This document shows positions 20,415 to 63,570 of a DNA stretch of 64,000 nt, in pieces. A program made the translations under genes and the position numbers. Position 1 is the stretch's first letter, and each line of letters begins with the position of its first letter. Below the pieces are notes generated by a model, which was given only the letters and a program-made list of their open reading frames with translations, was not told where the DNA came from and did not search any database. Source of the stretch: an uncultured Oscillospiraceae bacterium (lineage in GTDB: Bacteria; Bacillota; Clostridia; Oscillospirales; Oscillospiraceae); contig CAKTNW010000008.1 of NCBI GenBank assembly GCA_934589145.1, forward strand, positions 1 through 64,000. The letters are read 5' to 3'.

Positions 20415-20425
20415 AAAAATAGGAG

Positions 20426-22702: not shown

Positions 22703-22766
22703 ATTTTCTCCTTACGGGGTAGTCGGCCCGGCGGGATATGTTTTCCGCGAATGCAGCGGGACATTT

Positions 22767-22775
22767 ATTATAGCA
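22767..22775 (-). promoter_or_regulatory. Extended -10 element for the 165-residue gene
   Basis: Minus strand TGCTATAAT. The -35 is poor, as is common with extended -10 promoters. Confidence 0.4.
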
Positions 22776-22835
22776 CATTCTTTTCTCCCGCGCTACATAT
22801 ATATGAAGGAGAAACCGAAAAAGGAGGTCCCGCCC

Positions 22836-23670: not shown

Positions 23671-23802
23671 TATGAAGGATTATTATCAGACGATTTAGGG
23701 GAATTGTCTGATTATTTTCTGAGGACAGCCACCATCCCCATCCCCGCTTGTCCCCGGATGGAGGGCGATTGTCCGGATACACCATATTTACAGGAGGAAA
23801 CC

Positions 23803-31953: not shown

Positions 31954-32554
31954 GGGGAGGTTTCGCGCACCGGCGCGACCTACTTTTGAACTGTTGCGGT
32001 GCCCAAAATTTCGTTGCGGCATTAAAGCCGCCGAAATTTTGACCGCTGCCACTCGCTCACCTCGCTTCATCTGCCACTGGCAGCGCTCGGATTGCTCCCA
32101 ACAGTGACAAAAGTAGGCAAAAGCACCGGAAGGAACCTCCGGTTCCTTCACTTCCGGGCGCGCTATGTGTTGTGCAGATTTGCTGCTGTGACAACTCAAG
32201 TTTTGCGGTGGAAATCTAGATGGATGCTACGGCGGCATAGCCGCCGAGATCGGAGGCTAAAAACATGCCACCGGCATGTTTTCTTAACGCCCCGACGTCG
32301 CTGCCGCTAATGCTTACGCCAAACAACGCTTTATCGTCTACCGCTGCAACGATGAGCGGCAGCGGCGCAAGACGAAGGTCAATGCGTCATACGAAACGAC
32401 AACAACCATGTCCCGCGAGCGCGTGGTAAAAGGCGGTAAATGTGTACACGGCATAGCGTGCGCGGATTCTTAAACCGCAGGTTTAAGCAGCGTTTTTGGG
32501 TACTTTTGCCGCTGTGGGCAAAAGTACCTCGTCCCCGAGGGGACGAAACACCTC
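31954..32554. repeat. Long inverted-repeat element A (about 600 bp)
   Basis: The ends are inverted copies: GGTTTCG...CGACCTACTTTTG at the left and, read from the right, GTGTTTCG...CGAGGTACTTTTG. Each arm then carries a small hairpin and the string GCGCGCTATG or its variant. Element B (52753-53419) has the same arms. Matching stems keep their pairing with changed bases, such as GGAACC/GGTTCC in the left arm and AAACC/GGTTT in the right. It contains no credible ORF and fills the gap between spoVAF and degV. Confidence 0.65.
31989..32107. repeat. Loop-inserted module R1, copy 1
   Basis: About 119 bp lie between CCTACTTTTG and CAAAAGTAGG, the two sides of a hairpin that in element B has only a six-base loop. 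It contains AAAATTTC/GAAATTTT and CTGCCACTGGCAG and is homologous to copies near 60026 and 63441. Confidence 0.7.
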
Positions 32555-34446: not shown

Positions 34447-34530
34447 GTGCGGGCCGATGTGGGCATCGGCCCCTACGGGATTCTATCGTACCTGTTGTAG
34501 GGGGCGATGCCCACATCGCCCCGCAGGGCA
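34447..34530. repeat. Two GGGCCGATG-type palindromes
   Basis: Units near 34450-34480 (GGGCCGATGTGGGCATCGGCCC) and 34497-34528 (GTAGGGGGCGATG / CATCGCCCC) have the outer GTAGGG arms of the family with a different core. Confidence 0.6.
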
Positions 34531-44138: not shown

Positions 44139-45017
44139 TTAGTTGGTCTTGGCAGCCGTATCGGCGGTGCCGGTGGCCGCGGTATCCTTCAGGGGCCAGG
44201 TGGTGGGATCGGCGGTATCCTCGATCATCTTGGAGACGATCAGATAACGGTGGTTATCGTCGCCGTTCTTGCACACCGACAGGATCAGCACCTTGTCGCC
44301 GGCCACGGGCTTATTGTCCTTGTCCAGATTGGTGGTGCCGTCGGTTTCCTTCCACAGCTGGTCGAAGAAGCTGTTGAATACCTCATCATTGGAGAAATCA
44401 TGGTAGTAAATGATGTGGCTCAGGTCATACTGCACGCCGCCCACGATCTGATAGGTCACGCGGCGATCTTTCTGATACATATAGATCAGATGCTGTTCGC
44501 TGAAGTCCATGTTCTTCATCATGCTCTGCAAACCGCCGAACATGGTGCGGTTGGCCTGATTGTGGCCATACAGCACGGTGACGGGATCGTTCAGGTCGCG
44601 GCCGTTGATAGTCTTGCCTTCGACCACGGCTTCACTGAAAATGGTACCGGCCTTATTGCTGTTGCCGTCCAGATCACGGTGCAGATAGAATTCGCGGTCA
44701 GTGGGATGCTGGGCCACAGGATAGGACAGCTCGTGATCGGTGCCCAGGATCTTGGCGAAGTCAGGCACCTCCAGCCACGCGTACACATCCTTATACTTGG
44801 CGAAGGTCTCTTCCATGCCTGCCGGTTCCACAACGGGAGCGGGCTCCACGCGATCCTCGATGGTGGGCTCGTCGATGACGGGATCATCAATGACGGGCTC
44901 ATCAGGGGTGGTGTCGCCGCCGCAGCCGGCCAGCGCCAGAACCAGAACCAGCGACAGTGCCAGAATCAAGGCGCGGAGGATGGTGCGGCTGTTAAAGCGA
45001 GCAATCAATTCTTTCAT
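44139..45017 (-). CDS. Class B sortase with lipoprotein-like N-terminus
   Basis: A transpeptidase that links proteins with a C-terminal sorting motif to the wall. The 292-residue protein has His152 (VLYGHN), Cys249 (LSVCKNG) and Arg257 (NHRYLIV), the class B triad. Unusually the N-terminal signal ends in a lipobox LALAGC (Cys32), followed by a Pro/Glu/Asp repeat linker (DEPVIDDPVIDEP), so it may be a lipoprotein instead of a simple membrane-anchored enzyme. No LPxTG- or NPQTN-type substrate gene is next to it. Confidence 0.87.
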   Translation of the reverse strand: MKELIARFNSRTILRALILALSLVLVLALAGCGGDTTPDEPVIDDPVIDEPTIEDRVEPAPVVEPAGMEETFAKYKDVYAWLEVPDFAKILGTDHELSYPVAQHPTDREFYLHRDLDGNSNKAGTIFSEAVVEGKTINGRDLNDPVTVLYGHNQANRTMFGGLQSMMKNMDFSEQHLIYMYQKDRRVTYQIVGGVQYDLSHIIYYHDFSNDEVFNSFFDQLWKETDGTTNLDKDNKPVAGDKVLILSVCKNGDDNHRYLIVSKMIEDTADPTTWPLKDTAATGTADTAAKTN

Positions 45018-45168
45018 CTTATTTCTCCTTTCGCATGGCCGGAAAGTTTGCCGTCCGGCCCATGGGGAACAGCGCCGCGCAAAGCCACAGCACTTGAAGC
45101 CATGGTACCATATTATGGCGTCAAAAGCAACCATAAATTTCTCGACCAATGGGAGACAATGGAAAGAA

Positions 45169-46290
45169 CTACCAGTTGACAGGGTGATTCCAGGCGGCGA
45201 ACAGCGCCTCGAACCGTGCCCTCTGGGCGGGGGTCATGCGGCTCTTGTACTGGCCCAGCAGCGTGTCCGCCTGCTGGACATTGCCGGTTTTCAGATAGTT
45301 GCCCATGGCCCTTTCCAGGCTGTCCGCCGCCGTGGAACTGAGAGAGGCGGTATTGCCGATGCTGGACACGGCGTCGGGAACGGTGGCGGAGGTCTGCATG
45401 CCCTTCTGCTCGGCGGCGGCCTTGTCGGCAAAGTAGTTCAGCAGCATCTGATAGTTCTTCAGATCGCGGCTGCTGATCTGGTCATAGCCGCTTTGAGCCT
45501 GGGCCATCTCCTTCTGCCACGCGGCCACCTCGTCCTGCCAGCGGTCGTACTCCGCCTCCTGCTGGCCCTGCAGCAGCTGATAGCGCTCCAGCAGCGCGTC
45601 GCCCGCGTCCCGATAGCGGCTGTACGCGGCGGACTGCAGCTGGGGCAGTACGTCGGACAGCTTCGCCAGATACTGCTGATAGGACTGCTGCCCGGCGGAC
45701 TGGGCATAGCTGGAGCCATAGCCGCCGGTGAGCTGGGCGGCCTGTCCCATGGTGTCCTCCATGGCGGCGCGGCCCTGGCTGGCGTACTGCCGGGCATAGG
45801 ACTGATAGGCGCTGTCCGCCGCCGGATCATAGGAAAAGCCGGGCCGGGCACTGATCTCCTGGTACAGCGTCTCCAGCTGGGAAGCGAAGCTGGATTCATA
45901 GTCCTTGGGCCGCAGCGCCGAAAGACTGTCCAGCAGGCTGCGGGCCGCGTCCACATCGCCGGAGGGGGTATAGCCTTTCTCCAGCTCCTTCAGCGCCGCG
46001 GCGGTGCCGTCGGATACCTTGCCCAGGGGGAGATTGGATGAGCCGCCGGAGGAAGAAGCGGGGGAATAGGTGGGCTGCCTGGCCAGCAGACTGCCCCAGG
46101 TCTCCTTGCCCACGATGCCGTCCAGCTTCAGGCCGTTCTTCTGCTGATAGTCCCGCACGGCGGCCTGCGTTTTCGCGCCAAAAATGCCGTCCACGGCCAG
46201 GTTATAACCGTGCTCATTCAGCACGGTCTGCAATTTGCTGACAGCGCTGCCGGTGGAGCCGTAGCCCACCTGGCGGTAAGTAGATGCCAT
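45169..46290 (-). CDS. Peptidoglycan-binding, coiled-coil virion protein
   Basis: The 373-residue protein has an N-terminal PG_binding_1 domain (about 8-68; GSAVSKLQTVL, LAVDGIFGAKTQAAV), a Ser/Gly linker and a long helical region rich in Ala, Gln and Tyr (about 90-330) with coiled-coil character. It is last in the virion operon. A wall-binding module joined to a long helical body fits an ejected or tail-tip protein that meets the cell wall, or a protein that anchors particles to the wall. No catalytic domain is seen. Confidence 0.65.
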   Translation of the reverse strand: MASTYRQVGYGSTGSAVSKLQTVLNEHGYNLAVDGIFGAKTQAAVRDYQQKNGLKLDGIVGKETWGSLLARQPTYSPASSSGGSSNLPLGKVSDGTAAALKELEKGYTPSGDVDAARSLLDSLSALRPKDYESSFASQLETLYQEISARPGFSYDPAADSAYQSYARQYASQGRAAMEDTMGQAAQLTGGYGSSYAQSAGQQSYQQYLAKLSDVLPQLQSAAYSRYRDAGDALLERYQLLQGQQEAEYDRWQDEVAAWQKEMAQAQSGYDQISSRDLKNYQMLLNYFADKAAAEQKGMQTSATVPDAVSSIGNTASLSSTAADSLERAMGNYLKTGNVQQADTLLGQYKSRMTPAQRARFEALFAAWNHPVNW

Positions 46291-46327
46291 ATGATCGTCT
46301 CCTTTTCAAATGTGATGAAAGTGGTGT

Positions 46328-47902
46328 TCAGCTCAGGCGCTGCCACACATATACCGCCAGATAGGGCGGCATCATGTCCACCGCCTCGCCGTCGCCGCAG
46401 GACTGGGTGTCCACATCCAGCGTGTGGTTGTGGCTGATGGAGATGGCGTCGGTGCGCAGCTCACGGCTGCCGGAGCCGCCGCCCCAGCTCTCGGCATAAG
46501 CGCCGGAGCCGCTGCCGCCCTGGGCGATGTTGGGGATGCCGTGGTCGTGGCTGATGGACTCCGCCCCGGTGTGGCCGGTGATGTGGTGGGCGTGGGGCGG
46601 CAGCTGCTGGGCGGTCAGCGTGCGCTGCGCCTGTCCGCCGGTGGTCCCTGCGGCATAGCTCTCGCCCGCCGCCAGCAGGAACCGATCCTGGATCCGCTGC
46701 CATGTGCCGCCCAGCACCGTGCCGGGGTCGGCATCGGCGGTGGACAGATACAGCGCTCCCACCGGGTACAGCAGGTCGAGAAGTGTCCTGCCGCCCACCG
46801 TCAGGCTGCCTGTCGCCACCTTGCCCGCCACGGTCACATCGCCGTCGAACCCCGCGTCCCACGCGCACTGCAGCGTGGGGCTGTCCGCCAGCTTGCCGAA
46901 GGCCGCACCCACGCCTCCGGCCCGGAGATGGAAGGCCACCGCCGCGTTGGAGGAGGTGTAGCTGACGGCCCTGACGCTGCCCACCGTGTCGATGGCGGAC
47001 AGCTCTACCTCATAGGTGGTGTCCTTGTCCAGCGCCTCGGCGATCTGGGCGGTCACGCCGCTCACCAGCGTGGTGTAGCTGCCGTAGACGCCGCCCACCG
47101 GACGGTACCTGGCCCGCAGCGTCACGGTGTTCCGGCCGTCCAGCGGCCAGCAGCTGCCGGATGCCTTCACCCGCAGACAGGGCCCGCCGCTGTCCTCCAC
47201 CCCGGCGGCATTGCACCGGAAGGCCGCCGACGTCTGCAGCGACGGCATCTGATAGTCGAATACCGACACCGCCGGCGCGGTGACGGTGGTGGTGCGGCCA
47301 CGGGAATCGGTGACCACGGCGGTGGGCGTCAGGGTGCCTGCCATGCCGATGGGCGCCGTGACGCCGGAAAAGCCCGATACGCTCTGTCCGGCAAAGGTGA
47401 ACCGGCACCCCGCCAGCGACGCGCCGCCCACGGCGCTGGCCTCCACCGCGTACTGCAGGCAGCTCATGCCCCGCACCCACAGGCCCCACTGCTCCAGCAG
47501 CGCGTTGTCGTTCACCAGCGTCACCGTCAGCGCGGCGCTGGGCCGCATGCTGTCCGGCACATAGGCGGTAAAGGCGTAGTTCTTGGTGCAGTAGTTGGGG
47601 TTGCTGAGCTGGGGGATGCCGCTGGTAAACGCCACCGTCATGGTCAGCGTGCCGCTGCCGGACACGCTGTCGGGGATGGCCAGGGACAGGCTCTCCTCCG
47701 GCGTCCAGCGATAGACCACCCTGGTGTCGTCCTGGGATACGGTCTCCAGCTCCGCCGCCGTCACATCGGCGCTGACGCCCTGAAAGTCATAGTGAAAGCG
47801 GAAGCTGTACTGGGCCGAGGGCCGTGTCACCACCAGGGTGTTGGCCTGGCCGATGGTGATGTCACCCCAGCTGAGATTGAAATCCTTTTCCGTATACGCC
47901 AT
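46328..47902 (-). CDS. Phage tail fibre/baseplate protein with collar-like C-terminus
   Basis: The 524-residue protein is built of beta-rich, Ig-like repeats (about 1-330, DUF859-like) and ends in a tail-collar-type region: PVGALYLSTADADPGTVLGG, QLPPHAHHITGH, and MMPPYLAVYVWQR. The His-rich loops HAHH and SHDHG resemble metal-binding trimer tips of phage fibres. It probably contacts the receptor. The start lies 3 bp past the upstream stop. Confidence 0.75.
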   Translation of the reverse strand: MAYTEKDFNLSWGDITIGQANTLVVTRPSAQYSFRFHYDFQGVSADVTAAELETVSQDDTRVVYRWTPEESLSLAIPDSVSGSGTLTMTVAFTSGIPQLSNPNYCTKNYAFTAYVPDSMRPSAALTVTLVNDNALLEQWGLWVRGMSCLQYAVEASAVGGASLAGCRFTFAGQSVSGFSGVTAPIGMAGTLTPTAVVTDSRGRTTTVTAPAVSVFDYQMPSLQTSAAFRCNAAGVEDSGGPCLRVKASGSCWPLDGRNTVTLRARYRPVGGVYGSYTTLVSGVTAQIAEALDKDTTYEVELSAIDTVGSVRAVSYTSSNAAVAFHLRAGGVGAAFGKLADSPTLQCAWDAGFDGDVTVAGKVATGSLTVGGRTLLDLLYPVGALYLSTADADPGTVLGGTWQRIQDRFLLAAGESYAAGTTGGQAQRTLTAQQLPPHAHHITGHTGAESISHDHGIPNIAQGGSGSGAYAESWGGGSGSRELRTDAISISHNHTLDVDTQSCGDGEAVDMMPPYLAVYVWQRLS

Positions 47903-47905
47903 TGC

Positions 47906-48667
47906 TCATCCTCCGATCCATTTGAATGTCAGTCCGCTGCCGCTGTCCATGCGCCACGAGCCGATGCCGATGCTGTCAAGCACCGTGATGTTGGTGATAT
48001 ACAGCCGGTTGTTGGATACATAGGCGATCTCCGTGCTGTCCTGCCAGAAGCTCAGTTTCTGGGCGGTGAACACCGCCCGGAAGTTGTTCTGATCCACCAC
48101 CTTTTTGCCGTCGGTCTCCGTGGTGGTCAGATTCTGGCCCACCGCCACGCCATAGACCGGGGCGGGCCCGTCATAGTACACGATGCCCGTGCGGATATAG
48201 CCCTCCGTGTCCAGCCGGTAGCTGGAAAAGGCGGCGTCCACCGCCGCCACATTGGCGGCCAGATCGCTGCAGAAGCTGTAATACTGCGTCAGCGCCGCCG
48301 GATTGGCCTCCAGATAGGCGCTCAGCCGCTGCACATAGGTGCCGAACTGGGAGGCGGCCACATATTCCTCCCCCAGCCGTACCTCAAGCTGCTCCATGCG
48401 CCGCGTCACCTGCTTGGCCGTCTTGATGATCATGGCCCGCAGATTCTGGAACTGCTCATTGTTCTCCGACACGGCGTCGGCGGCGGAGGCGCTGGCGGCG
48501 GCTCCGGCCCGCTTCCGCTGTCCGCCTCCGGCGGATGCGCCGCCGCCCTCCAGGGCGGCCAGGGCCATGTTGATCTGCTGGGCCATCTGGAAGAGATAGG
48601 AGTACTGCTGGGTCAACTGCTGCTGCACCGACCCGTTGGGATAGGGCGGCATGGGAAAATCGCTCAC
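47906..48667 (-). CDS. Virion structural protein, probable fibre or collar component
   Basis: The 253-residue protein has a helical N-terminal half (GSVQQQLTQQYSYLFQMAQQ) with an Ala/Gly-rich linker and a beta-rich C-terminal half ending in GLTFKWIGG, as seen in phage fibre adaptors. It overlaps the nozzle-like gene by four bases and lies 3 bp from the fibre gene, so it is part of the tail module. No named family is recognised. Confidence 0.6.
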   Translation of the reverse strand: MSDFPMPPYPNGSVQQQLTQQYSYLFQMAQQINMALAALEGGGASAGGGQRKRAGAAASASAADAVSENNEQFQNLRAMIIKTAKQVTRRMEQLEVRLGEEYVAASQFGTYVQRLSAYLEANPAALTQYYSFCSDLAANVAAVDAAFSSYRLDTEGYIRTGIVYYDGPAPVYGVAVGQNLTTTETDGKKVVDQNNFRAVFTAQKLSFWQDSTEIAYVSNNRLYITNITVLDSIGIGSWRMDSGSGLTFKWIGG

Positions 48668-50376
48668 GGCAGATCACTTCCTCTCTCATACACGGCGCTG
48701 ATGCTGTAAATGCGGCAGCCGCCGTGACCGGTGAGCCGCAGCCGGAGCTGGGGGCAGCGCACCGGCCGCACCGCCAGCAGTCCGGCCCGCAGGCGGCGTC
48801 CGTCTCCCTGCAGGCTCCCGGCATAGTGCCAGGTGCGCCCCTCGTCATAGCTGACGTGGGCCTTCACCCACGCGCCGCTGTCCGGCGAGAGCCGCAGCTC
48901 CAAGCGCTGCAAAAACTTCTGCTCCGGCGTGTCCAGCCCCAGCTCACCCGTCTCGGCGTACCAGTCGGGCGCCGCCTCGTCGCCGTCAGGCGCACCATGC
49001 AGCGCCGTGACGCCGCCCGCCGTCAGGCCGTACAGCACTCCGCCGGACACGGCGAACTGCTTCACCCGCAGCCCGTCCTGCCGGTGCCACAGCTGCCGCG
49101 CCGTGTCATAGACGAAGAGGTGATCCCCGCCACTTCGGCGGGCCGACAGCCAGTAGTGTCCCTCCGCCGCGCCGCCCACGGCGCTTTCATACCGCTCGTC
49201 GCCGAAGCAGGCGGATACCAGCCGGGGCATGCTGCCGTCAAAGGCGTACACGCCGCCGCTGCCGTGAAAATACAGCACCCCGTCCGCCACCGCCAGGGAG
49301 CGGCTGCTGCCCTGCTTCACGCCGGGGCACTGCAGCGACGTGATCTGGTGCGCGCCTGCGGCGCTGATGTACAGCCGCTCCATGCTGTGCTCCTTGAAGA
49401 ACAGCACCGTCCCCAGATAGGCCGCCGCGCCGGTGAACACGTCGTCGCTGCCCCGGTCGGCGGCGTAGCTGTCGGTGGACAGCCCTGCGAAGGCGTTCCA
49501 GTTGCGGAAGTCGCCCAGGGCGCTGCCGTACACGGCGTTGACGGTCTGTCCGTCCACGATGCCGTACTTGCAGCCCCACAGCCGGTTGCCGCACTCCACC
49601 ACGAAGTCCATGTCCGGCACATAGCGCCGCACCGTCACGGCGGTGGCCTGCTCCCCCTCAATGGCGGCCACGGCGCCGATGACGATGGCGTCGTCGGCGC
49701 ATTGCAGCAGCGTCCAGGTGCCGTCCGCCGCCGCCCCGGTGCAGCCGGAGACGGTCACGCCGTCCCCGGCGGAAAAGCCCAGGCCGATGCCCGCGGCGCT
49801 GATCTTCATGGCCGCGTCGTCCACCGCCTGCCACATGACGCCGTCATAGCGCATCAGCGCCGCGCCGCTGCCGGTGTCCAGCCACAGATCGCCGCTCTCG
49901 GCACCGGCCGGAGCCGCCGCCCCGGCGGTATAGTCCTCATACTCCGTGCCGTCGCTGCGGCACAGGGCAAAGGTGACGGCGCCGGTGGTCTGACGGGTGT
50001 TCTCCAGACTGCCCTTGTCGCTGAGATCCTGGGTGTTGACGTACTTCTTGTCGGGCCAGATCAACAGATACGCCCCCATGGATACCAACTGCTTTTCCCC
50101 ATCCGTCAGCGTCAGGTCGATGGCCGCCCCGTTGATGTACAGCGTGCCGCCGTCCACCCAGATCAGGCAGTCCTTGGCGCAAAGACCGTTGGGCTTGTCC
50201 AGCGCCATAACGGTCTTGCGCTTCTCCCGCACCGACAGCGTGGGATAGCCGTTCCCCGTCAGGTTCTCCATCCGGGCGAAAGCCCCCAGCGGCGTCCTGG
50301 GCCGCGCGTCATAGCCCAGAAATTTGCTGACCGTCACGCGCTGCTGCGCCGGGGCCTTGCATTGTGATAGAAACAT
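48664..50376 (-). CDS. Large beta-rich virion protein (podovirus nozzle-like)
   Basis: A 570-residue protein with repeated short beta strands (for example GGTLYINGAAIDL, GNRLWGCKYGIVDG, GVLYFHGSGGVYAFDG, GDHLFVYDTARQLWHR) that read like a beta-propeller. In short-tailed phages such a protein is the tail nozzle attached below the connector. The N-terminus KFLGYDARPRTPLGAFARMENL is typical of these proteins. Its place between connector and fibre genes supports the call. Confidence 0.6.
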   Translation of the reverse strand: MFLSQCKAPAQQRVTVSKFLGYDARPRTPLGAFARMENLTGNGYPTLSVREKRKTVMALDKPNGLCAKDCLIWVDGGTLYINGAAIDLTLTDGEKQLVSMGAYLLIWPDKKYVNTQDLSDKGSLENTRQTTGAVTFALCRSDGTEYEDYTAGAAAPAGAESGDLWLDTGSGAALMRYDGVMWQAVDDAAMKISAAGIGLGFSAGDGVTVSGCTGAAADGTWTLLQCADDAIVIGAVAAIEGEQATAVTVRRYVPDMDFVVECGNRLWGCKYGIVDGQTVNAVYGSALGDFRNWNAFAGLSTDSYAADRGSDDVFTGAAAYLGTVLFFKEHSMERLYISAAGAHQITSLQCPGVKQGSSRSLAVADGVLYFHGSGGVYAFDGSMPRLVSACFGDERYESAVGGAAEGHYWLSARRSGGDHLFVYDTARQLWHRQDGLRVKQFAVSGGVLYGLTAGGVTALHGAPDGDEAAPDWYAETGELGLDTPEQKFLQRLELRLSPDSGAWVKAHVSYDEGRTWHYAGSLQGDGRRLRAGLLAVRPVRCPQLRLRLTGHGGCRIYSISAVYERGSDLP

Positions 50377-50431
50377 GCCGTTCCTCCTTCCTTACACGGG
50401 GCGGGAGAGCATTCTCTCCCGCCCTGATTAT

Positions 50432-50482
50432 GAAAAAAGCTTCGCAGAATTCGCCGCCTGCCATGGCGGCGAATTTTTTGGA
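50432..50482. repeat. Hairpin repeat family R3, short copy
   Basis: AAAAAAGCTTCGCAGAATTC followed by the stem TTCGCCGCC/GGCGGCGAA, nearly the same as 39808. It lies inside the virion operon, between connector and nozzle-like genes. Confidence 0.55.
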
Positions 50483-50488
50483 TAAGGC

Positions 50489-50848
50489 TTAGCATAATTT
50501 CAGTGCCTTGACGCCCTGCACCGGCGCGGTGGTACGGCATACATAGTCCCGATAGGTCAGCAGGCCGTTGTTCCAGTTGGCCGCCGCGCTGTTGTACCGG
50601 GCCATCTCGCCGTTGCAGTAGTGGATCTGCGCCTCCACATAGTGGCGGTACAGCTCGTCATAGGGCGCCTCCACCGCCAGCGCTGCATCCTCCTCCAGCG
50701 CCGCCAGCGGCCCCGTCACCCGGCAGATCTCCCGCAGCACGAAGCCCTCCGCCTGCGCCAGCCACCGCAGCTTCTCCGCCCTGGTGTACTGATTGGGCAC
50801 CAGCGCGTCCACCTGCTCCAGCACCTGCTTTGCTGTGATGTTCGCCAT
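50489..50848 (-). CDS. Head-tail connector-like protein
   Basis: A 119-residue mostly helical protein (ITAKQVLEQVDALVPNQYT, KLRWLAQAEGFVLREI) with the size and helix layout of gp6/adaptor-type connectors that bind under the portal. It follows the capsid genes, where connectors normally lie. The call rests on position and length. No strong motif is seen. Confidence 0.6.
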   Translation of the reverse strand: MANITAKQVLEQVDALVPNQYTRAEKLRWLAQAEGFVLREICRVTGPLAALEEDAALAVEAPYDELYRHYVEAQIHYCNGEMARYNSAAANWNNGLLTYRDYVCRTTAPVQGVKALKLC

Positions 50849-50861
50849 GGCTGCCGCCTCC

Positions 50862-51083
50862 TCAGTCGGCCATTCTGTCCACATAGCGGCGGGCCTCCTC
50901 CGCCATCATGCGGCTGTTCACCAGTACCTCCGCCACATAGTCGGGCACCTCCACCTGTACGCCCTTCATGATCTTGAAGCTCCGGCCGTTGACGGAGACG
51001 ATGATGAAGTTTTCCTCCTGCTTGCGGCCTCTGGGGATGGTCACGCTGACCGTCTCCGCAGCCCTGTCCTGCTTCTTTGCCAT
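50862..51083 (-). CDS. Small virion-operon protein of unknown role
   Basis: The 73-residue protein has a basic N-terminus, strands (VSVTIPRGRKQEENFIIVSV, RSFKIMKGVQVEVPDYV) and a C-terminal helix with EEARRYVD. Small genes just after the capsid gene often encode decoration or head-completion proteins. The start at 51083 has GGAGG upstream. No family recognised. Confidence 0.6.
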   Translation of the reverse strand: MAKKQDRAAETVSVTIPRGRKQEENFIIVSVNGRSFKIMKGVQVEVPDYVAEVLVNSRMMAEEARRYVDRMAD

Positions 51084-51106
51084 ATCACGTTCCTCCTTTG
51101 TTGTTG

Positions 51107-51195
51107 TGTGGATACGGCGGGGTGTGGTCACCCCGCCCTACGCATATCTGCAAAGCCGATTTGTAGGGCGGCATGACTACATGCCGCCGCCGTAT
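51107..51195. repeat. Two palindromes between capsid and small virion gene
   Basis: Units near 51116-51142 (GGCGGGGTG / CACCCCGCCCTAC) and 51161-51188 (GTAGGGCGGCATG / CATGCCGCC). The second matches the unit at 58205 with loop ACTA. Confidence 0.65.
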
Positions 51196-51218
51196 AGGGG
51201 TTAAATTTTCATGCCAGC

Positions 51219-52454
51219 TCAGTTACCCTTATCCTCACCGGAATAGCTGCTGCCGCACTCCACGCGGACGATGTACTCGTCGTACAGGATGGCGGCGGCA
51301 TGGATGCCCTTCCAGCCCACGCTGGAGCGCTGATCCAGGGGATCGGCGGTGCCGGAGGAGCCGCGGGGCTTCACGATGACCTCGGTGCCCTCGCTGAGAT
51401 CCACGACGCCGTAGGCGCCCTTGCCCACGAACAGGCAGCCGTACACGGCCAGACCGTCCTTGCCGCCCTCGCCGGGATAGATGACGTCGTTGTCCGCCAG
51501 GGTGACGGCGCTGTCCAGCGTCAACTGGCTGGCGGTGTTGGCCGTGACCTTCGCGCGCTTGCCGCCGCACAGCACATAGCGGCCCACCAGCGCTCCGGCG
51601 GCCACGGTGCCGCCGTCAAAGCTGACGGTGGCGGAGCCGTTGGCGGCGGCGCTGGCGGTCAGGGTGCGGCTGTTGCTGGCCAGATCGTCGCCGCGGAAGA
51701 TCTTGGCCTCGGTGGTCTCCACGAAGCGCACGCCGTGCAGCTCGCCGATCTCGCCGGAGAACAGCTCCGTGGCGGCGGCGTACTGGTGGGCGGCCACCCA
51801 GTCGGGGTCATTGCGCAGGTCGAAGGCCACGCTGGGATGGATGATGCAGACGTACTTGCCGTCAAAGGTGGGGGCGTTCATCTTCTTCAGCTCGGTGGCG
51901 GCGCGGGCCACCAGCTCTGCGGTCATGACGCAGGTCTTGTCCAGCCCGTAGCGGTGCAGGTTCTCCGCCTTCTTGCCGTCGGTGTCCTTGCCGGGGGCGT
52001 AGATGACGTGGGTGCCCTGCTGGATCTCATTGCGGGTCACGGTGTCCAGGGTCAGACCCATGTTGGCGCCGTGGCGGTCGGTGATCTCCAGCACCACGTC
52101 GTCGATGGCGGTCAGATCCAGCATGTCGGACACGGTGGTGTAGTCGCCGTACTGGCTCAGCTCCTTGGTGATGTAGCTGACGGTGATGCCGCTGCCGTCG
52201 GGGGTCACGCCCTCGGTCAGGGGCGTCAGCGCCTTGTCGAAGGAGCCGAACTTGCACCACTCCACGGTCTTGCCGCCGCCCACAGGCAGGGGCTTGGTGG
52301 CGGCGAACTGGTTGTGCACCAGCGCGGGCTTGGCGTTCTCCAGCAGCTCCATGCCGTAATAGGTTTTCATCTCGGCGCTGAGGCTCTGGGTGCCGGTGGT
52401 CTGTACATTGCTGTCTGCAAAGCGCTGCAGATCAAAGGTATGTGCAAATGCCAT
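51219..52454 (-). CDS. N4-gp56 family major capsid protein
   Basis: The 411-residue protein matches the N4-gp56 capsid family: Gln/Thr-rich start, then TYYGMELLENAKPALVHNQF, PLPVGGGKTVEWCKF, PLTEGVTPDG, LSQYGDYTTVSDMLDL, and the later CIIHPSVAFDLRND and GEIGELHGVRFVET. These have the HK97 fold and form the shell. An Ig-like insertion rich in Ala, Gly and Ser is near 270-330. GGAG precedes the ATG. The reading frame is intact. Confidence 0.92.
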   Translation of the reverse strand: MAFAHTFDLQRFADSNVQTTGTQSLSAEMKTYYGMELLENAKPALVHNQFAATKPLPVGGGKTVEWCKFGSFDKALTPLTEGVTPDGSGITVSYITKELSQYGDYTTVSDMLDLTAIDDVVLEITDRHGANMGLTLDTVTRNEIQQGTHVIYAPGKDTDGKKAENLHRYGLDKTCVMTAELVARAATELKKMNAPTFDGKYVCIIHPSVAFDLRNDPDWVAAHQYAAATELFSGEIGELHGVRFVETTEAKIFRGDDLASNSRTLTASAAANGSATVSFDGGTVAAGALVGRYVLCGGKRAKVTANTASQLTLDSAVTLADNDVIYPGEGGKDGLAVYGCLFVGKGAYGVVDLSEGTEVIVKPRGSSGTADPLDQRSSVGWKGIHAAAILYDEYIVRVECGSSYSGEDKGN

Positions 52455-52625
52455 AGTGATTTCTCCTTTATAAAATTAGTGTCGGATGTTCCATGCTCCC
52501 CGGCGTCGGGAGCGCGCTGCGCCCGAAGAAACTGCTGTCTGCGGTAGCCCGCGACCCCGCCCGGACACCCCGGGCATCTATATCAAATCCCCACCCGATG
52601 CTGCACCGGTGTCTTATTTCCGCTC

Positions 52626-52750
52626 GTAGGGCGGGGCCCGTGTGCCCCGCCATCCACCATTGCACCGGGTGTGACAAATCTCCCGTAGGGGCGGACGACG
52701 AGCGCTGTGGAGCGCAGCGGAACGAGTGCCCTTGGGGTATCCGCCCCTTG
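52626..52750. repeat. Palindromes upstream of the capsid gene
   Basis: GTAGGGCGGGGCCCG / GTGCCCCGCC near 52627-52654 and a longer GTAGGGGCGGA...TCCGCCCC pair at 52686-52746 lie between the capsid gene and element B. Confidence 0.5.
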
Positions 52751-52752
52751 CA

Positions 52753-53419
52753 GGGGGCATTTCGCCCTCCAGGGCGACCTACTTTTGCCAATAGCGGCAA
52801 AAGTAGGCAAAAGCGCCAGAAGGAACCTCCGGTTCCTTCACTTCCGGGCACGCTATGGTTTGTACGAAATGGTAAGTGCCTGCCACGCGTTCGCGGGACA
52901 TGGCCGTTATCGTTACGGATGACGCATTGACTTTCTTCCTGCGCCGCTGCCGCTGATGCGCATCAACGGTGGGGAAGAAATCGTTGTACGGCGGGCCGAT
53001 GAGGGCATCGGCCCCTACGGAATGTCGTCGTACCGCTTCGTAGGGCGGGGTGACCACACCCCGCCGCCCACCGCTGCACCGGCTCCCTGTTCCCGCCCGT
53101 AGGGGCGGATGACCCTGTCCGCCCACACAATAGGCGCACAATGTCCTTCTCCGTACCGCATCAGCGGCAGCGGCGCAGGAGCAGAGACGATTCGATCATA
53201 ATGCGATAACGGAGATCCTGCGTGAACGTGTGGTACATGGTCACAAAATTCAAAAACGGTATAGCGCGCAAGGAAGTGAAGAAACCATGGGTTTCTTCTG
53301 GCTCTTTTGGTTACTTTTCCAGCTGTTGGGAAAAGTAACCCGCCGGAGGCCGTCTCCGCCGCCGGAGGCCGTCTCCGCCGCCGGAGGCCGTTTCCGCCCC
53401 GGAGGGCGAAACACCCCCC
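52753..53419. repeat. Long inverted-repeat element B (about 670 bp) inside the virion operon
   Basis: Left arm GGGGGCATTTCGCCC...GGGCGACCTACTTTTGCC is mirrored at the right by GGTTACTTTTCC...GGAGGGCGAAACACCCCC. The inner arms carry CTGCGCCGCTGCCGCTGATG (52949-52968) and its inverted copy near 53159. Its centre holds three GTAGGGCGG palindromes. It shares arms with element A. It ends at the base before the stop codon of the scaffold gene. No credible ORF is present. Confidence 0.65.
53342..53398 (+). repeat. Three tandem 19-bp units
   Basis: GCCGGAGGCCGTCTCCGCC is repeated three times head to tail, the third with one base change. It widens the right arm of element B. Confidence 0.85.
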
Positions 53420-53977
53420 TCAAAACCGGATCTTCTCCCCTCGCTGCACCCGTCTCCGGATCTCCGCCAGCTCACCGGGGGTCAGCGCCTTGAGATCGGC
53501 GCGGGTCACGGCGCTGCTGCTGCGGCCGCCGTTCTCCGCCACGCGCCGTCCGCCGCTGGCCACGGCACGGCTGCACTGCTCCGCCGCCCGCTTCGCGCCG
53601 TAACGCATGGCCTGGGCCAGGATCTCCCGGCTGTGTACCACCTCATAGGCGGTGCGGCCATCCACCCCCGCCGCGATCAAACGGCCAAAGGCCGGGTCAC
53701 GCATCTCCCTCTGCCAGTCAAAGCCGTCATATACCCGGCGGATGTCCTCTGCCTCGCGGGCCAGGCGCGCCACGCAGTCGTTTTCAAACCCCTGCCGCTC
53801 CTGGGCCTGACGGCGCAGTGCCTCGTTCTCCTGCCGCAGCGTCCGCAGCCGGCCGTCCAGGATCTTCTGCACCCGCTGCTGAAAGGGCTGCTTGCACCGG
53901 CCACGGATCAGCGCCTCGAATTCCGCGGCGCAGTCCGTCTCCGGCATGACCTGCTCCATTACCTGTTCCTCATCCAT
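53420..53977 (-). CDS. Capsid scaffolding-like protein
   Basis: A 185-residue, strongly charged, helical protein with a coiled coil (about 38-75; QRVQKILDGRLRTLRQENEA) and an Arg/Lys-rich C-terminus that could bind capsid subunits. It lies between the protease and capsid genes, where scaffold genes stand in tailed phages. It overlaps the protease gene by 8 bases. The role is inferred. Confidence 0.65.
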   Translation of the reverse strand: MDEEQVMEQVMPETDCAAEFEALIRGRCKQPFQQRVQKILDGRLRTLRQENEALRRQAQERQGFENDCVARLAREAEDIRRVYDGFDWQREMRDPAFGRLIAAGVDGRTAYEVVHSREILAQAMRYGAKRAAEQCSRAVASGGRRVAENGGRSSSAVTRADLKALTPGELAEIRRRVQRGEKIRF

Positions 53978-54272
53978 GGCGTTCCCTCCCTGTCCGAAGG
54001 TCTCTCACCTTCACATAGTCTCCATAGTGCCGCGCCAGCCGGAGAAAGCCCTCTCCGGCCACCGCCGGCAGCTCGCTGTCCTCCGCCGCGATGATGGAGC
54101 AGAACCCGTCGCCGAAATAGCTCAGTACCAGCTTGTCCTGCCGCTCCAGCGCGTCGGCGGTGGCCTCCATCAGGATGCTGACGGCGGCGCAGAGGATGTC
54201 CTGCCCCTTGGGGGCGTAGCCGCTGTGGCCTCTGGCCCACATGGCGTTGTCCTTCAGCGTGATCTGGATCAT
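53970..54272 (-). CDS. Prp-like cysteine protease in the capsid operon
   Basis: The 100-residue protein matches Prp (YsxB), the protease that trims the N-terminal extension of ribosomal protein L27 in Firmicutes: GHSGYAPKGQDILCAAVS holds catalytic His16 and Cys28. Host Prp genes lie between rplU and rpmA. This one lies between portal and scaffold genes and overlaps both, so it most likely acts as a prohead protease on scaffold or capsid N-termini. That role is inferred from position. Confidence 0.8.
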   Translation of the reverse strand: MIQITLKDNAMWARGHSGYAPKGQDILCAAVSILMEATADALERQDKLVLSYFGDGFCSIIAAEDSELPAVAGEGFLRLARHYGDYVKVRDLRTGRERHG

Positions 54273-55093
54273 CGGGGCCGCACCACCTCTCGTGACTGCT
54301 GGCGGCTGCGCTCCATGGCGCCCCGAGCCGCCGCATCGCGGGATGTGCCGGGCGCGGCGCTGCCGCCGTCTGCCTGCTCCGCCGCCAGGCGCTCCGCCAG
54401 ATGGGTGCCCTTGGCCTCGTCCACCACCTGGGCCAGCTGCAAAAGCTGCTGCCGCAGCGCGGCCATCTCCGCCGCCTGGGTCCTGCCGCCGGAGATGATC
54501 CGCGCCAGCTGATCCTTGTTCTTGAAGTCCATCAGCTCCAGACACCGCAGCGCCTGATCCGCCAGATCCTCCCGGAAGAAGCCCATCTGAAACAGCTGCA
54601 GCGCCAGTTGATTGGCCTCCGCCGTGCGATAGGGGCTCTCCCGTTCCGCGCCGATCTCCAGGTCGAACTCCGGCACCCGATAGGACACGTTCACCCCGTC
54701 GTCCATCACGCGGGGCTGCAATCCGCTGCGGTCATAGCTGACGAACTCCTCCGTGCCCATGGCGCCCAGCAGCCGGAACTGCCGGGGCATCTCATAGAAC
54801 TGGCGGATCAGCTCGATGCACAGCGTCACCACATCGGCAAAGGCCTCGTAGCCGTCGTCGATCATGTTGCGGCTCAGCTTGCCGCTGCTCTCCTGCAGCG
54901 CGGCGATGGCGGTACCCGCCGTCACGCCTGCGGCGGTGCCGCCGTTGGCCACGTCCCGGTTGCCTGCCGTCTCCTTCATCTCGGCGATCTTGTTGTTCAG
55001 GATCGCCACATACACGCTGTCCAGGCTGCCCGCCCGGATAGGCGCGATGGAGTCCGCCCCCAGATTGCCGTTGGTGTGGACAAAGGGCCGCGT
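54269..55093 (-). pseudogene. Portal protein, C-terminal part after an in-frame TAG
   Basis: Directly after the TAG at 55094-55096 the same frame continues for 274 codons without another stop (TRPFVHTNGNLGADSIAPIR, VAILNNKIAEMKETAG, then clip and crown-like helices) to a TGA that overlaps the Prp-like start as ATGA. No ribosome site precedes an internal start. GTG at 55015 could begin a shorter product. It is the second half of one portal gene of 643 codons. Confidence 0.75.
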
Positions 55094-56197
55094 CTAGTCG
55101 GCGTATTCGTTTTCGTTCACCGCCCCGTCGGAGCGGATGAAGAACCGGGGCGTGGCGTTGGCCAGCGTGTTCTTCAGGATGGCCTGATTCATCAGGTCGA
55201 TCTGCTTCTGGGGGCTCTTGCACAGGTCGATGTACCCGTACCCGCAGGGGGTGCCCTCCTCGGGGAACAGCACGTCGAACACAAAGGGGTACTTCCCGTG
55301 GTCGTACCAGCCCCGCTGCGCCATACTGGGGCCGCAGGGCGCCTGCCCCATCATGGGACGGCCCTCCTTGTCGGTGCCCAGAAACCGGGTCTCGGTGGGC
55401 TGCACCGTGTCGTTCTCCGTGGCGTACAGCACCGTTTCCCCCACATACTTGCAGTACTGCAATACCCTCCGGCCCTCCACTGCCGTGTGATAGTACCAGT
55501 CCACCACCAGCGACTTCCCGGTGGTGTCCACCGTGTCGTCATAGAGATAGCGGCTCAGGGTGAAGCCGCCCCGTCCCAGCTTCCCCTCCAACTGGGGATA
55601 GTCCGCCAGCAGCCGCTCGTTGTCCACCAGCTCCGTGGAGAAGAAGTGGGCGCTGTCCTGGATGTCCGTTACCCCCGGCTCCCAGAACAGGTTCAGCAGA
55701 TCCATCCGCTTCACGCTGATGTCCCCCAGTCCGCCCAGCTTCGTGCCGTCCCAGAACACGCCGTACACGGCGCAGCCGGACTTCAGCTTGTACCACCACG
55801 CGGAGGAATACGTCCGCTTGAACTGATTCTTCTTCAGCACCACCGGCAGGATGCGGCTCAGCCGCTGCGCCTCCAGCCTGTCGTCCGGCTCACGGGGCAG
55901 CACGGTGGGGGCGGGATAGCAGTCCATGGCGTCGGCGTGCTTGGAGAGGATGCAGTTCACCAGCCACCCGCTGGCGGGCTGGGGATCGCCGCTGTTGCCG
56001 CCCTGGCCCTCCTTCTCCATCTGCTCCCAGTGCCGCAGCTTCCAGAACTGCTCGTTGTCGATGATCCGCTGCTCCAGACGGGCCTTACCCTCCTTGTACT
56101 TTTTCAGGATGCCGTTGGCCCGCCGCAGCTCCTCGGGGCCGATCCTGGGCCGCGCCAGAATGTCGGCGGCGGACTGTGCCGTGTCGTTGTGTTCCAT
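55094..56197 (-). CDS. Portal protein, N-terminal part ending at TAG
   Basis: The 367 residues before the stop include portal-type stem and wing features (RRANGILKKYKEGKARLEQR, WWYKLKSGCAVYGVFWDG, SVKRMDLLNLFWEPGVTDI, PFVFDVLFPEEGTPCGYGYI, KSPQKQIDLMNQAILKN). The portal is the 12-fold ring at the head vertex through which DNA passes. AAGGAGG lies before the ATG at 56197. The break is one base from CAG. It is the first gene of the virion operon, and no terminase gene stands before it. Confidence 0.8.
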   Translation of the reverse strand: MEHNDTAQSAADILARPRIGPEELRRANGILKKYKEGKARLEQRIIDNEQFWKLRHWEQMEKEGQGGNSGDPQPASGWLVNCILSKHADAMDCYPAPTVLPREPDDRLEAQRLSRILPVVLKKNQFKRTYSSAWWYKLKSGCAVYGVFWDGTKLGGLGDISVKRMDLLNLFWEPGVTDIQDSAHFFSTELVDNERLLADYPQLEGKLGRGGFTLSRYLYDDTVDTTGKSLVVDWYYHTAVEGRRVLQYCKYVGETVLYATENDTVQPTETRFLGTDKEGRPMMGQAPCGPSMAQRGWYDHGKYPFVFDVLFPEEGTPCGYGYIDLCKSPQKQIDLMNQAILKNTLANATPRFFIRSDGAVNENEYAD

Positions 56198-56368
56198 AAG
56201 TACCTCCTTGTGATGTAGGATGGATGTGAAGAACGCCTCCACACCCCTGCCCCTGCCCCATGGCCGCCGTTGCTGCCCAAGGGGCAACACCCGGTAAAAA
56301 AGTGGTAAATTTTTTGTAACATCCCCGGAAACGGCGGAAAATGGCACCGCCCCAGCCCCTTCCCGGCC

Positions 56369-56397
56369 TTGACGGCCAGGGTGCGGCGATGTATAAT
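56369..56397 (+). promoter_or_regulatory. Promoter of the methyltransferase gene
   Basis: TTGACG (56369-56374), 17-bp spacer, TATAAT (56392-56397), 36 bp before the start codon. Confidence 0.75.
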
Positions 56398-56433
56398 AAA
56401 CTGATTTATTATCTGTATGGAGGACTTGGGGAT

Positions 56434-57297
56434 ATGTGGATCGCGGACGGCTGGCAGGATTATGAATTGCTCTCCTGCGGCGGCGGAGAAAAACTGGAAC
56501 GTTGGGGTCGTCAGATCCTGGTGCGGCCTGACCCCCAGGCCATCTGGGAGGCGGACAAGCGCTCGAAGCTGTGGCGGCAGGCCAACGCCCGTTACAGCCG
56601 CAGCTCTACCGGCGGCGGCCATTGGGAGAAGAACGACCTGCCCCAGAGCTGGCCCATCCGCTATAAGGAGCTGACCTTCCAGGTAAAGCCCATGAACTTC
56701 AAGCATACGGGCCTGTTCCCGGAGCAGGCGGCCAACTGGGACTTCGCCATGGACGCCATCCGCAGCGCGGGCCGTCCCATCCGGGTGCTGAACCTGTTCG
56801 CCTATACCGGCGGCGCCACCGTGGCCTGCGCCAAGGCGGGCGCCAGCGTCTGCCATGTGGACGCGGCCAAGGGCATGGTCTCCTGGGCGAAGGAAAACGC
56901 GAAGCTCTCCGGCCTGGCCGACGCGCCCATCCGCTGGATCGTGGACGACTGCGCCAAGTTTGTCGAGCGGGAGATTCGCCGGGGCAAGACCTACGACGCC
57001 ATCATCATGGATCCCCCCAGCTATGGCCGCGGCCCTTCCGGCGAGGTCTGGAAGCTGGAGGATAACCTGTACCCCTTCGTGAAGCTGTGCATGCAGGTGC
57101 TGTCGGACAAGCCCCTGTTCGTCATCATCAACAGCTACACCACCGGTCTTGCGCCCTCCGTGCTGGGCTATATCCTGCACCTGCTGGCCTGCCAGCGCTT
57201 CGGCGGCAAGGTCATGTGGGACGAGCTGGGCCTGCCCTGCACCGAGTCCGGCATGGCGCTGCCCTGCGGCGCAACGGGCCGCTGGGTCAGCGAATAA
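56434..57297 (+). CDS. Class I SAM-dependent methyltransferase (COG1092-like)
   Basis: A 287-residue methyltransferase: SAM-binding loop LNLFAYTGGATVACAKAG (about 110-127), acidic end HVDAAKGMVSWAKENA, and IMDPPSYGRGPSGEVW (about 190-205) carrying the DPPxY-type motif. It matches the catalytic half of RlmI/RlmK-type 23S rRNA methyltransferases but has no PUA domain. GGAGGA lies 9 bp before the ATG at 56434. It is divergent from the virion operon and upstream of the ECF genes. Confidence 0.83.
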   Translation: MWIADGWQDYELLSCGGGEKLERWGRQILVRPDPQAIWEADKRSKLWRQANARYSRSSTGGGHWEKNDLPQSWPIRYKELTFQVKPMNFKHTGLFPEQAANWDFAMDAIRSAGRPIRVLNLFAYTGGATVACAKAGASVCHVDAAKGMVSWAKENAKLSGLADAPIRWIVDDCAKFVEREIRRGKTYDAIIMDPPSYGRGPSGEVWKLEDNLYPFVKLCMQVLSDKPLFVIINSYTTGLAPSVLGYILHLLACQRFGGKVMWDELGLPCTESGMALPCGATGRWVSE

Positions 57298-58204: not shown

Positions 58205-58290
58205 GTAGGGCGGCATGACCACATGCCGCCGCCCAATATTGAACGCTTTCCTTGCTGAAAATCGTCAGATTTTCAGCAAAATCAATGAAA
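58205..58290. repeat. Empty GTAGGGCGGCATG palindrome and a second hairpin
   Basis: GTAGGGCGGCATG, loop ACC, ACATGCCGCC at 58205-58233 is the unfilled form of the unit that holds the R1 module at 63426. A second hairpin TTGCTGAAAATC/GATTTTCAGCAA follows at 58251-58280. Confidence 0.7.
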
Positions 58291-58304
58291 CGAGGAACCC
58301 AACA

Positions 58305-59171
58305 TTGGAACCCATCATTCGTGTCGATCACCTGACACATACCTATAGCGCCGGAACGCCCTTCCAGCGCAGCGCCGTCAAGGACATGTCCCTGGATATC
58401 CTGCCGGGCGAGTTCCTGGGCGTCATCGGCCATACCGGCAGCGGCAAATCCACCCTGATCCAGCACCTCAATGGCCTGCTGAAGCCCACCGAGGGGCATA
58501 TCTACCTCAACGGCCAGGACATCTGGGCCGACCCCAAGAAGATCCGCCAGGTGCGCTTCCATGTGGGCCTGGTGTTCCAGTATCCCGAGTACCAGCTCTT
58601 CGAGGAGACGGTCTATAAGGACGTGGCCTTCGGCCCGAAAAACATGGGCCTGGACGAGGCGGAGATCGACCGCCGGGTGCGCCAGTCGGTGCAGGCCGTG
58701 GGCCTGAACGAGGACGTGCTGGAAAAGTCCCCCTTCGCCCTGTCCGGCGGCCAGAAGCGCCGCGTGGCCATCGCCGGCGTCATGGCCATGGAGCCGGAGG
58801 TGCTGATCCTGGACGAGCCAACCGCGGGCCTTGATCCCCGTGGCTGCGAGGATATCCTCGCCCTCCTGCGGGATTACCATGCCCGGCGCGGCAGCACCGT
58901 GGTGCTGGTCAGCCACAGCATGGAGGAGATCGCCCGCAACGCCCAGCGCATCATCGTGCTGGACAAGGGCGGCGTCTGTATGCAGGGCAGCCCGGTGGAG
59001 GTGTTCGCCCGTGCCCGTGAGCTGGAATCCATCGGCCTTGACGTGCCCCAGGTCACCAAGATCGCCCACGCCCTCCATGAAAAGGGCGTGGCCATCGACC
59101 CGGCGGTCTATACGGTGGAGGCGCTGCGTGCGCAGCTCCTCGCCCTGAAAGGGGGCCGCAACCTATGCTGA
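58305..59171 (+). CDS. ecfA2: ECF transporter ATPase EcfA2
   Basis: Second ATPase of the ECF module, 288 residues: GHTGSGKST, VGLVFQYPEYQLFEETVYKDV, LSGGQKRRVAIAG, VLILDEPTAGLDP and VSHSMEE. The TTG at 58305 is the likely start. GAGGAA lies 7 bp upstream and the family begins about here (EPIIRVDHLTHTY). The gene overlaps ecfT by seven bases. Confidence 0.93.
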   Translation: MEPIIRVDHLTHTYSAGTPFQRSAVKDMSLDILPGEFLGVIGHTGSGKSTLIQHLNGLLKPTEGHIYLNGQDIWADPKKIRQVRFHVGLVFQYPEYQLFEETVYKDVAFGPKNMGLDEAEIDRRVRQSVQAVGLNEDVLEKSPFALSGGQKRRVAIAGVMAMEPEVLILDEPTAGLDPRGCEDILALLRDYHARRGSTVVLVSHSMEEIARNAQRIIVLDKGGVCMQGSPVEVFARARELESIGLDVPQVTKIAHALHEKGVAIDPAVYTVEALRAQLLALKGGRNLC

Positions 59172-59998: not shown

Positions 59999-60365
59999 CC
60001 TCCGTAGGGGGCGGCGTGCTCCTGTTGCGGTGCCCAAAATTTCTGCGCTGCCTTACGGCGGACGCTTGAAATTTTGACCGCAGCCACTCGTTCGCCGTGC
60101 TTCATCTGCCGCTGGCAGCGCACGGCTCTCTCCCCGCCGTTTGCCGGATAATGTACGTTGAATGTGCGTAGGGGCGGGGCTCTGCCCCGCCCACCGATAC
60201 ATCGCTGTACCACCGGCGGGCGGGGTAGAACCCCGCCCCTACACCCGACCACCGGCGCCCCTACGCATCGACTGTCGATAGAACTTCCGTAGGGCGGGGC
60301 CCGTGTGCCCCGCCGTCCGGTATGCGGCGGTTTATCACGCGGCGGGACACACGGGTTCCGCCCTA
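59999..60365. repeat. Repeat block between ecfT and truA, with R1 copy 2
   Basis: R1 copy 2 lies at about 60018-60132, between GTAGGGGGCGGCGTG and CCCCGCC. Palindromic units then follow near 60168-60192 (GTAGGGGCGGGGC), 60216-60243 (GGGCGGGG / CCCCGCCCCTAC), 60288-60316 (GTAGGGCGGGGCCCG) and 60335-60366. No ORF is credible in this 437-bp gap. Confidence 0.7.
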
Positions 60366-63194: not shown

Positions 63195-63570
63195 ATCGTT
63201 GTAGGGGGCGGCGTCCCCGACGCCCCGTCGTTTACCGCAAATGCCGTCGTATACCGTGCGGGCCGTCGAGGACGCCGGCCCCTACGGACGATGATAAGAG
63301 CCCGTTGCGTGATATGGCGGGCCGATGTGGGCATCGGCCCCTACGGATTTCTACCGATGGTGCGCCGCATTTACGGCGGCGGGGTGAGGTCACCCCGCCC
63401 TACGACCCAACCGACGACACCCTTCCGTAGGGCGGCATGATCCTGGTGCGGTGCCCAAAATTTCTGCGCTGCCTTACGGCGGGCGCTTGAAATTTTGACC
63501 GCTGCCACTCGTTCGCCGTGCTTCATCTGCCACTGGCAGCGCACGGCTTTCTCCCCACATGCCGCCGCGC
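63195..63570. repeat. Repeat block upstream of the last gene, with R1 copy 3
   Basis: Palindromes lie near 63200-63228 (GTAGGGGGCGGCGTC), 63260-63287 (GGGCCG / CGGCCCCTAC), 63318-63344 (GGGCCGATG / CATCGGCCCCTAC) and 63378-63403 (GGCGGGGTG / CACCCCGCCCTAC). R1 copy 3 (63441-63554) sits exactly between GTAGGGCGGCATGA and CCACATGCCGCC, the two halves of the unit found empty at 58205. Confidence 0.75.

Follow-up and report, generated by a model that had tools for sequence, protein, structure and literature searches.

A capsid, neck and fibre operon in an uncultured Oscillospiraceae bacterium, a candidate part of a domesticated system resembling a gene transfer agent

Our analysis concerns 64,000 nucleotides of DNA from an uncultured Oscillospiraceae bacterium (assembly GCA_934589145.1, contig CAKTNW010000008.1, positions 1 to 64,000), the whole of which is called the window here. 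On its minus strand, at 45169-56197, lie ten phage-type genes with host-type genes on both sides, recognized by matches to PHROG, Pfam and TIGR profiles. We suggest that they are the structural operon of a system resembling a gene transfer agent (GTA). The first is a P22-like portal gene (54269-56197) with one in-frame stop, both pieces of which match phrog_156 and P22_portal. Next come genes for a Prp-type cysteine protease (53970-54272; Peptidase_Prp, E 1.7e-10, and the peptidase family phrog_4478) and for a scaffold-like protein (53420-53977), which matches a family of unknown function (phrog_13908, E 7.9e-34) and is assigned its role by position. A non-coding spacer (52455-53419) separates these from the gene for an N4-gp56 family major capsid protein (51219-52454; TIGR04387, E 5.3e-73; phrog_1357, E 3e-76). 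A small conserved head-tail protein (50862-51131; phrog_15239, E 4.3e-12) and a connector-like protein (50489-50884; phrog_12105, E 2.7e-21, function unknown) are encoded at the same positions in relatives. The tail genes encode a nozzle (48664-50376; phrog_511, E 1.9e-51), a protein of unknown function (47906-48667) with weak PHROG and Pfam matches only and a position conserved in relatives, a fibre-like protein (46328-47902; phrog_372, E 4.1e-40; Gp10_C, E 1.7e-18) and a protein with an N-terminal peptidoglycan-binding domain and a long helical body (45169-46290; PG_binding_1, E 3.5e-18).

Protein models were used to examine two of these assignments. The nozzle model had a predicted local distance difference test score (pLDDT) of 89.4, and its fold matched P22 gp10 (8eap, E 1.7e-15) and T7 gp12 (6r21, E 5.7e-13) at 11% identity, which supports the predicted nozzle. 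A sequence search against solved structures gave marginal matches for the capsid and nothing useful for the nozzle or portal. In the peptidoglycan-binding protein (pLDDT 89.8) the N-terminus matched the SleB N-domain fold, and the best whole-length matches were uncharacterised proteins of predicted podoviruses. A sequence-only reading of this DNA had described a structural set from portal to fibres between host genes, with a wall-binding domain in the last gene, and these profile and fold matches bear out both points. That reading had also raised the idea of a wall-bound device, for which we found no specific support. Its picture of genes packed with overlaps of 4-8 bases was right for three overlaps (4, 8 and 4 bases); there is also one of 23 bases, and the remaining genes are separated by gaps of 965, 87, 112, 3 and 37 bases.

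On one side the cluster adjoins a class-B-sortase-like gene (44139-45149, minus strand; TIGR03064, E 1.7e-21, below the family cut-off), and the host open reading frames (ORFs) there also include PPIase, ThiF, DUF554 and ProC. On the other side a gene for an S-adenosylmethionine (SAM)-dependent methyltransferase (56341-57297, plus strand; PF10672) is accompanied by ECF transporter genes and TruA. A Pfam scan (E 1e-5) detected no integrase, terminase, head or tail family in 30 other ORFs of the window; 8483-9352, 10993-13686, 23758-25356 and 58215-59171 were left out of it. Among the scanned ORFs on either side of the structural block there was no integrase, repressor or replication gene, so the locus does not have the makings of a complete prophage. 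The terminase subunits of relatives, TerL (large) and TerS (small), also found no match in the 64 kb (tblastn, E 1e-5).

The portal stop codon lies in frame at 55094-55096 and splits the gene in two, an exception to the earlier remark that most frames are intact. The portal is open at this position in all nine related contigs checked and, when the query carried an X at the stop, in all 120 near-identical portals listed, each of 642 amino acids, 99% identical and with 3-8 differences. These are the best 120 of 8000 scored, among which a truncated protein would rank lower, so that other carriers are possible. Judged by these comparisons, the stop is either rare or an assembly error. Nonsynonymous divergence (dN) from the closest relative is equal before and after it (0.087 and 0.085), and the stop, if real, would thus be recent. 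A recoded codon was considered and rejected because relatives carry a sense codon there. If the stop is real, the strain should not make normal particles, and the window copy of the system may be broken.

We collected 95 related loci, 15 on viral contigs and 80 in genomes, the latter being the best 80 of 247 relatives. Thirty of them (L001-L014, L016-L026, L028-L030, L032 and L072) are close to the window's cluster, with capsids 75-94% identical and gene order kept where contigs permit; they are not all independent, some being one sequence in two collections, and many are cut by contig ends. The genome loci are filed under Oscillospiraceae, Oscillibacter and other Clostridia, several of them from animal guts. 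In several close loci TerS and TerL lie upstream of the portal, and several have host neighbours in common (a NUDIX gene; a transglutaminase-like gene, TetR and a transporter). The closest relative with an examined genome is L016 in genome G001, whose capsid is 92% identical. Its cluster occupies the same site as that of the window, with the methyltransferase gene adjoining the portal and the sortase gene at the other end, so that the search for the same genes between the same host genes, a check put forward in the sequence-only reading, gave a positive answer. Seven close relatives (L010, L011, L012, L028, L029, L030 and L032) have capsids without a stretch corresponding to about residues 254-330 of the window capsid; on this comparison the stretch is an insertion domain that is present or absent among close relatives. 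A related cluster of TerL, portal, capsid and nozzle genes, with neighbours in common, was also seen in L087, L091 and L093 (records of Bittarella massiliensis and Neobittarella massiliensis), which are possible cultured hosts.

The genus of G001 was represented by 32 genomes, and the capsid was matched in 25 of these, TerL in 27, the portal in 23 and the nozzle in 25. RpoB is a marker present in every complete genome; since its domain was seen in only 24 of the 32, the assemblies must have gaps, and the frequency of the cluster is about the highest that they could show. All but one of the 27 TerL matches are at least 61% identical, the last (G323) being 24% identical. Two types occur in the genus: the close type A, with the capsid in 19 genomes and TerL in 20, and type B, with capsids 51-55% and TerLs 59-66% identical. 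The ordinary phage terminase family PF03354, taken as a contrast, was found in 7 of the 32 genomes. Among 300 genomes drawn from the family, the capsid was matched in 39, four of them at 80% identity or more. At least 120 capsid homologues were listed, which says no more than that such proteins are very common.

The claim that the operon stands without a terminase holds for the window and fails for the genomes of its relatives, and with it goes the idea of a particle without any packaging ATPase. TerL was found once in 14 of the 16 genomes from which the close genome loci come, the exceptions being G002 (a 0.9 Mb assembly) and G007. In G001 an intact TerL lies on contig C27, where genes for a DUF6291 protein and a 2-hydroxyacid dehydrogenase adjoin it, and the operon lies on C25. 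Among the 20 TerLs of type A, 14 have the portal no more than 1.7 kb downstream (G003-G006, G009-G012, G014, G016, G141, G289, G315 and G322), five stand apart from it (G001, G008, G013, G316 and G319) and the last (G015) is truncated where its contig ends. The detached genes have different host neighbours: a radical-SAM gene in G013, where the operon follows rpsF-ssb, smpB in both G316 and G319, and argS in G008. No portal was found in the assemblies of G008, G316 and G319. The ATPase motifs are intact in the detached TerL, and a stop occurs in one of 26 TerLs (G015), near the C-terminal end. The ratio of nonsynonymous to synonymous divergence (dN/dS) is 0.093 for the TerLs of G008 and G319, detached in both, 0.17-0.27 for the other detached pairs and 0.09-0.30 for the remaining pairs. 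Since the operon has the same site in the window and in G001, the simplest assumption is that TerL is separate in the window's species too, probably at a locus of its own. Four TerL matches (P0241-P0244) that are 88-91% identical to that of G001 could not be tied to this species. Stretches related to the DUF6291 gene were seen near TerL in L013, L021, L028, L030, L136 and L225, and in two genomes such a gene lies directly upstream of a detached TerL (L220, 5576-6034; L227, 11557-11853).

The 965-base gap between scaffold and capsid genes is filled by a dispersed, partly palindromic repeat, recognized by its inverted match to itself, by copies at relatives' loci and by further copies or pieces in the window at 32098-32548, 34449-34524, 60288-60318 and 63313-63432. 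A related repeat directly follows TerL in G001 and lies between TerL and portal in G315 (L217; 36 bases) and in L021 (110 bases). TerL may have been detached when repeats of this kind recombined.

Selection was assessed gene by gene, as the sequence-only reading had proposed. Between the window and L016, dN/dS is 0.21-0.35 in nine of the ten cluster genes and 0.67 in Prp, and it is 0.09-0.26 in five flanking host genes. Synonymous divergence (dS) is 0.18-0.60 in the cluster (median about 0.38) and 0.29-0.56 in the same five host genes (median 0.39). By these ratios, the cluster genes are under purifying selection. The 17 capsids, 16 nozzles and 17 portals compared within the genus had no stop codons where they aligned.

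Inheritance with the host was examined by comparing protein distances with those of RpoB. Pearson correlations were 0.72 for TerL, 0.59 for the capsid, 0.82 for the nozzle and 0.62 for the portal, with Spearman values of 0.47, 0.30, 0.74 and 0.41, and p was 0.0002, the floor of 5000 permutations. Tree splits in common with RpoB numbered 6 of 11 for TerL, 5 of 9 for the capsid, 3 of 8 for the nozzle and 4 of 8 for the portal; out of 1000 shuffled trees, seven reached the count for the nozzle and none those for the other three. These comparisons took in 23 of the 24 genomes matching RpoB, leaving out a short piece in G012, and 26 of the 27 with TerL, leaving out G323 and second copies in G289 and G322. 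They also used 17 of 25 capsids, 16 of 25 nozzles and 17 of 23 portals, leaving out the more distant type-B copies and those cut or split (capsids of G289 and G322; nozzles of G005, G008 and G016). On these measures, the cluster genes agree with RpoB far more than chance would give, though not fully.

Based on these observations, we put the probability at about two in three that the cluster is the structural operon of a domesticated, podovirus-like, GTA-like system inherited vertically in a genus of gut Clostridia. What supports this is the set of genes, which recurs in relatives, together with a terminase found intact at other places in relatives' genomes, the purifying selection and the inheritance alongside the host. 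Three of six features by which GTAs are recognized, in the available part of a published account (PMC9662315), were found here. The particle proteins derive from tailed phages (portal, capsid, nozzle and terminase families). In relatives G001 and G013, TerL and the operon are fixed on different contigs with host genes around each, GTAs being often spread over several loci. Inheritance appears to be mostly vertical, given the dS similar to that of the flanks, the distance correlations and the splits above shuffles, with partial agreement. The other three features, which are the packaging of mostly random host DNA, a head too small for all of the system's own genes and the delivery of the DNA into other cells, call for particles, and for this reason we speak of a GTA-like system. 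The domesticated, GTA-like character suggested in the sequence-only reading is thus supported by the host flanks and the lack of replication or integration genes seen beside the block as well as by selection and co-inheritance.

The working of such a system, including particle formation, packaging and delivery of host DNA and a terminase in the window strain, is what we infer from the genes. The operon would be expressed in some cells, where scaffold and capsid would build a small head on the portal and Prp would process it. TerL, encoded beside the portal or at a separate locus, would fill the head with chromosomal DNA. The nozzle, the fibre and the peptidoglycan-binding protein would make up a short tail for docking to the wall of Gram-positive cells. 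More tentatively, and against our own odds, the packing motor may be uncoupled from the capsid operon, with the terminase alone at different host loci, under selection, and packaging separately controlled; systems of this kind would then be the source of host DNA in Oscillospiraceae particles in human faeces.

Several observations weigh against a GTA-like system. It is predicted from genes, the portal of the window copy is broken, and the 64 kb gave no match to the terminase of relatives. Constraint is poor in Prp, as its ratio shows, and gene g6 reaches a dN/dS of 0.74 against L014. The more distant pair L016-L009 gives 0.10-0.24 (Prp 0.39), about half the values for the window and L016; the higher ratios may reflect recently relaxed selection or the dependence of dN/dS on time. 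Values of up to 0.65 occur in diverged pairs, where dS is high. The agreement with RpoB, being partial, counts here as well. Five of the 32 genomes (G318, G320, G323, G325 and G326) have neither capsid nor close TerL, and the absence is real because RpoB is present there. IMG/VR and INPHARED list relatives among viral sequences. In L009 an integrase lies 2.7 kb from the portal with a host-type ORF between them, and in G141 recombinase-like genes stand about 8 kb to either side of the cluster; the host-type ORF and the recombinase-like genes were named by eye. Finally, the families matched by the TerS of L018 are those of phage terminase small subunits and of DNA-binding proteins.

The same genes, wall-binding protein included, would also suit a domesticated killing particle of the PBSX kind, which packs host DNA or nothing and kills related cells with no gene delivery. 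Borodovich et al. (2026, PMC12946183), in the available part of their report, leave this possibility open for FpGTA, the GTA of Faecalibacterium. Next to the block we noticed neither a bacteriocin-like gene nor one for immunity, and sequence cannot otherwise distinguish such a particle from a GTA; we consider it improbable. Under simple decay, the cluster would be what is left of an old phage with a short tail, its genes for integration, replication and lysis gone and its structural genes now eroding. This would account for the portal stop, the missing terminase, the repeat that splits the operon and the weak constraint on Prp. Against it stand the intact portals of relatives, the low dN/dS of the nine other genes, the constraint on detached TerL and the recurrence of capsid, TerL and nozzle in 25-27 of 32 genomes. 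The sequence-only reading had held that full prophages, or an empty site, in related genomes together with relaxed selection would mark the cluster as decay. Five genomes do lack it; no full prophage was seen at the loci of close relatives and selection is not relaxed, which disfavours decay, although the portal of the window copy is broken. We regard this explanation, too, as having little chance of being right. A live phage is very unlikely, as is a satellite dependent on a helper phage for the functions it lacks. In favour are the viral filings (IMG/VR and faecal phage clones), the L009 integrase and, in 11 more distant loci, a repressor family whose one scanned member is CI-like. Against are the absence of that family from the 30 close loci, the host-type ORF between the L009 integrase and the portal, the recurring host neighbours and a divergence that tracks the host. 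Since the loci of distant relatives include this repressor family, true prophages probably occur in the wider family and may have given rise to the close group.

Taken as a GTA-like system, the cluster is most like FpGTA by description. In the available part of the report (PMC12946183), FpGTA also belongs to gut Clostridia, is described as podovirus-like, has TerS, TerL, portal, scaffold and capsid genes and no replication genes, occurs across species of one genus and has its genes in two separate loci. Its main operon holds TerS and TerL and a second operon holds fibre, holin and endolysin genes, whereas here TerL is detached in some lineages, the fibre and wall-binding genes stand with the head genes, and the operon has no holin or endolysin. 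The TerS of FpGTA is described there without an obvious DNA-binding domain, a further contrast with the relatives' TerS that counts against our interpretation. Particles and packaged DNA are reported for FpGTA, whereas the present cluster is known from genes. According to the same source, GTA-like packaging was seen in Oscillospiraceae (Onthomonas, 3 of 25 events), and a search of four metagenome-assembled genomes gave a strong candidate operon in one only, a Faecalibacterium; the packaging of host DNA in Onthomonas is reported there and not tied to the present cluster. The GTAs of alphaproteobacteria and spirochaetes, as far as the available text describes them (PMC9662315), similarly consist of phage-derived structural genes that are fixed in the host, often at several loci, and inherited vertically; they differ in phage ancestry and hosts, and gene delivery is established for them. 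A P22-type portal and a nozzle of the P22 gp10/T7 gp12 type are common to the cluster and to P22-like and T7-like phages, from which it differs in having no integration, replication or lysis module. The best named isolate phages among 15 matches listed reach 34% for the capsid (Bacillus phage Pascal) and 34.5% for TerL (Pelagibacter phage HTVC115P). Two faecal contigs labelled as phage come closer (MT837590.1, capsid 82% and TerL 77%; MT836218.1, capsid 79%); these are short, unverified and unannotated clones of 6.6 and 11.8 kb, and may be host DNA of the same kind. The cluster is a concrete candidate for a GTA gene set in Oscillospiraceae, with a single terminase. An active system would add another short-tailed GTA to those of gut Clostridia, one with its packaging gene separated from the capsid operon.

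Two other features of the window were noted. An N-acetylmuramoyl-L-alanine amidase with an SH3 domain is encoded at 22614-23579. Its gene family (c36) also includes ORFs that adjoin the structural cluster in some distant relatives. The enzyme could act as a partner in lysis, or simply be one of the host's own amidases. An AT-richer stretch at 17000-20500, with guanine-cytosine content down to 0.465, carries a rolling-circle replication initiator gene (19073-19972) near a tRNA-Thr (20514-20589). The stretch looks like a small integrated element of the plasmid or filamentous-phage type, and the initiator gene is part of this other element, 25 kb from the cluster.

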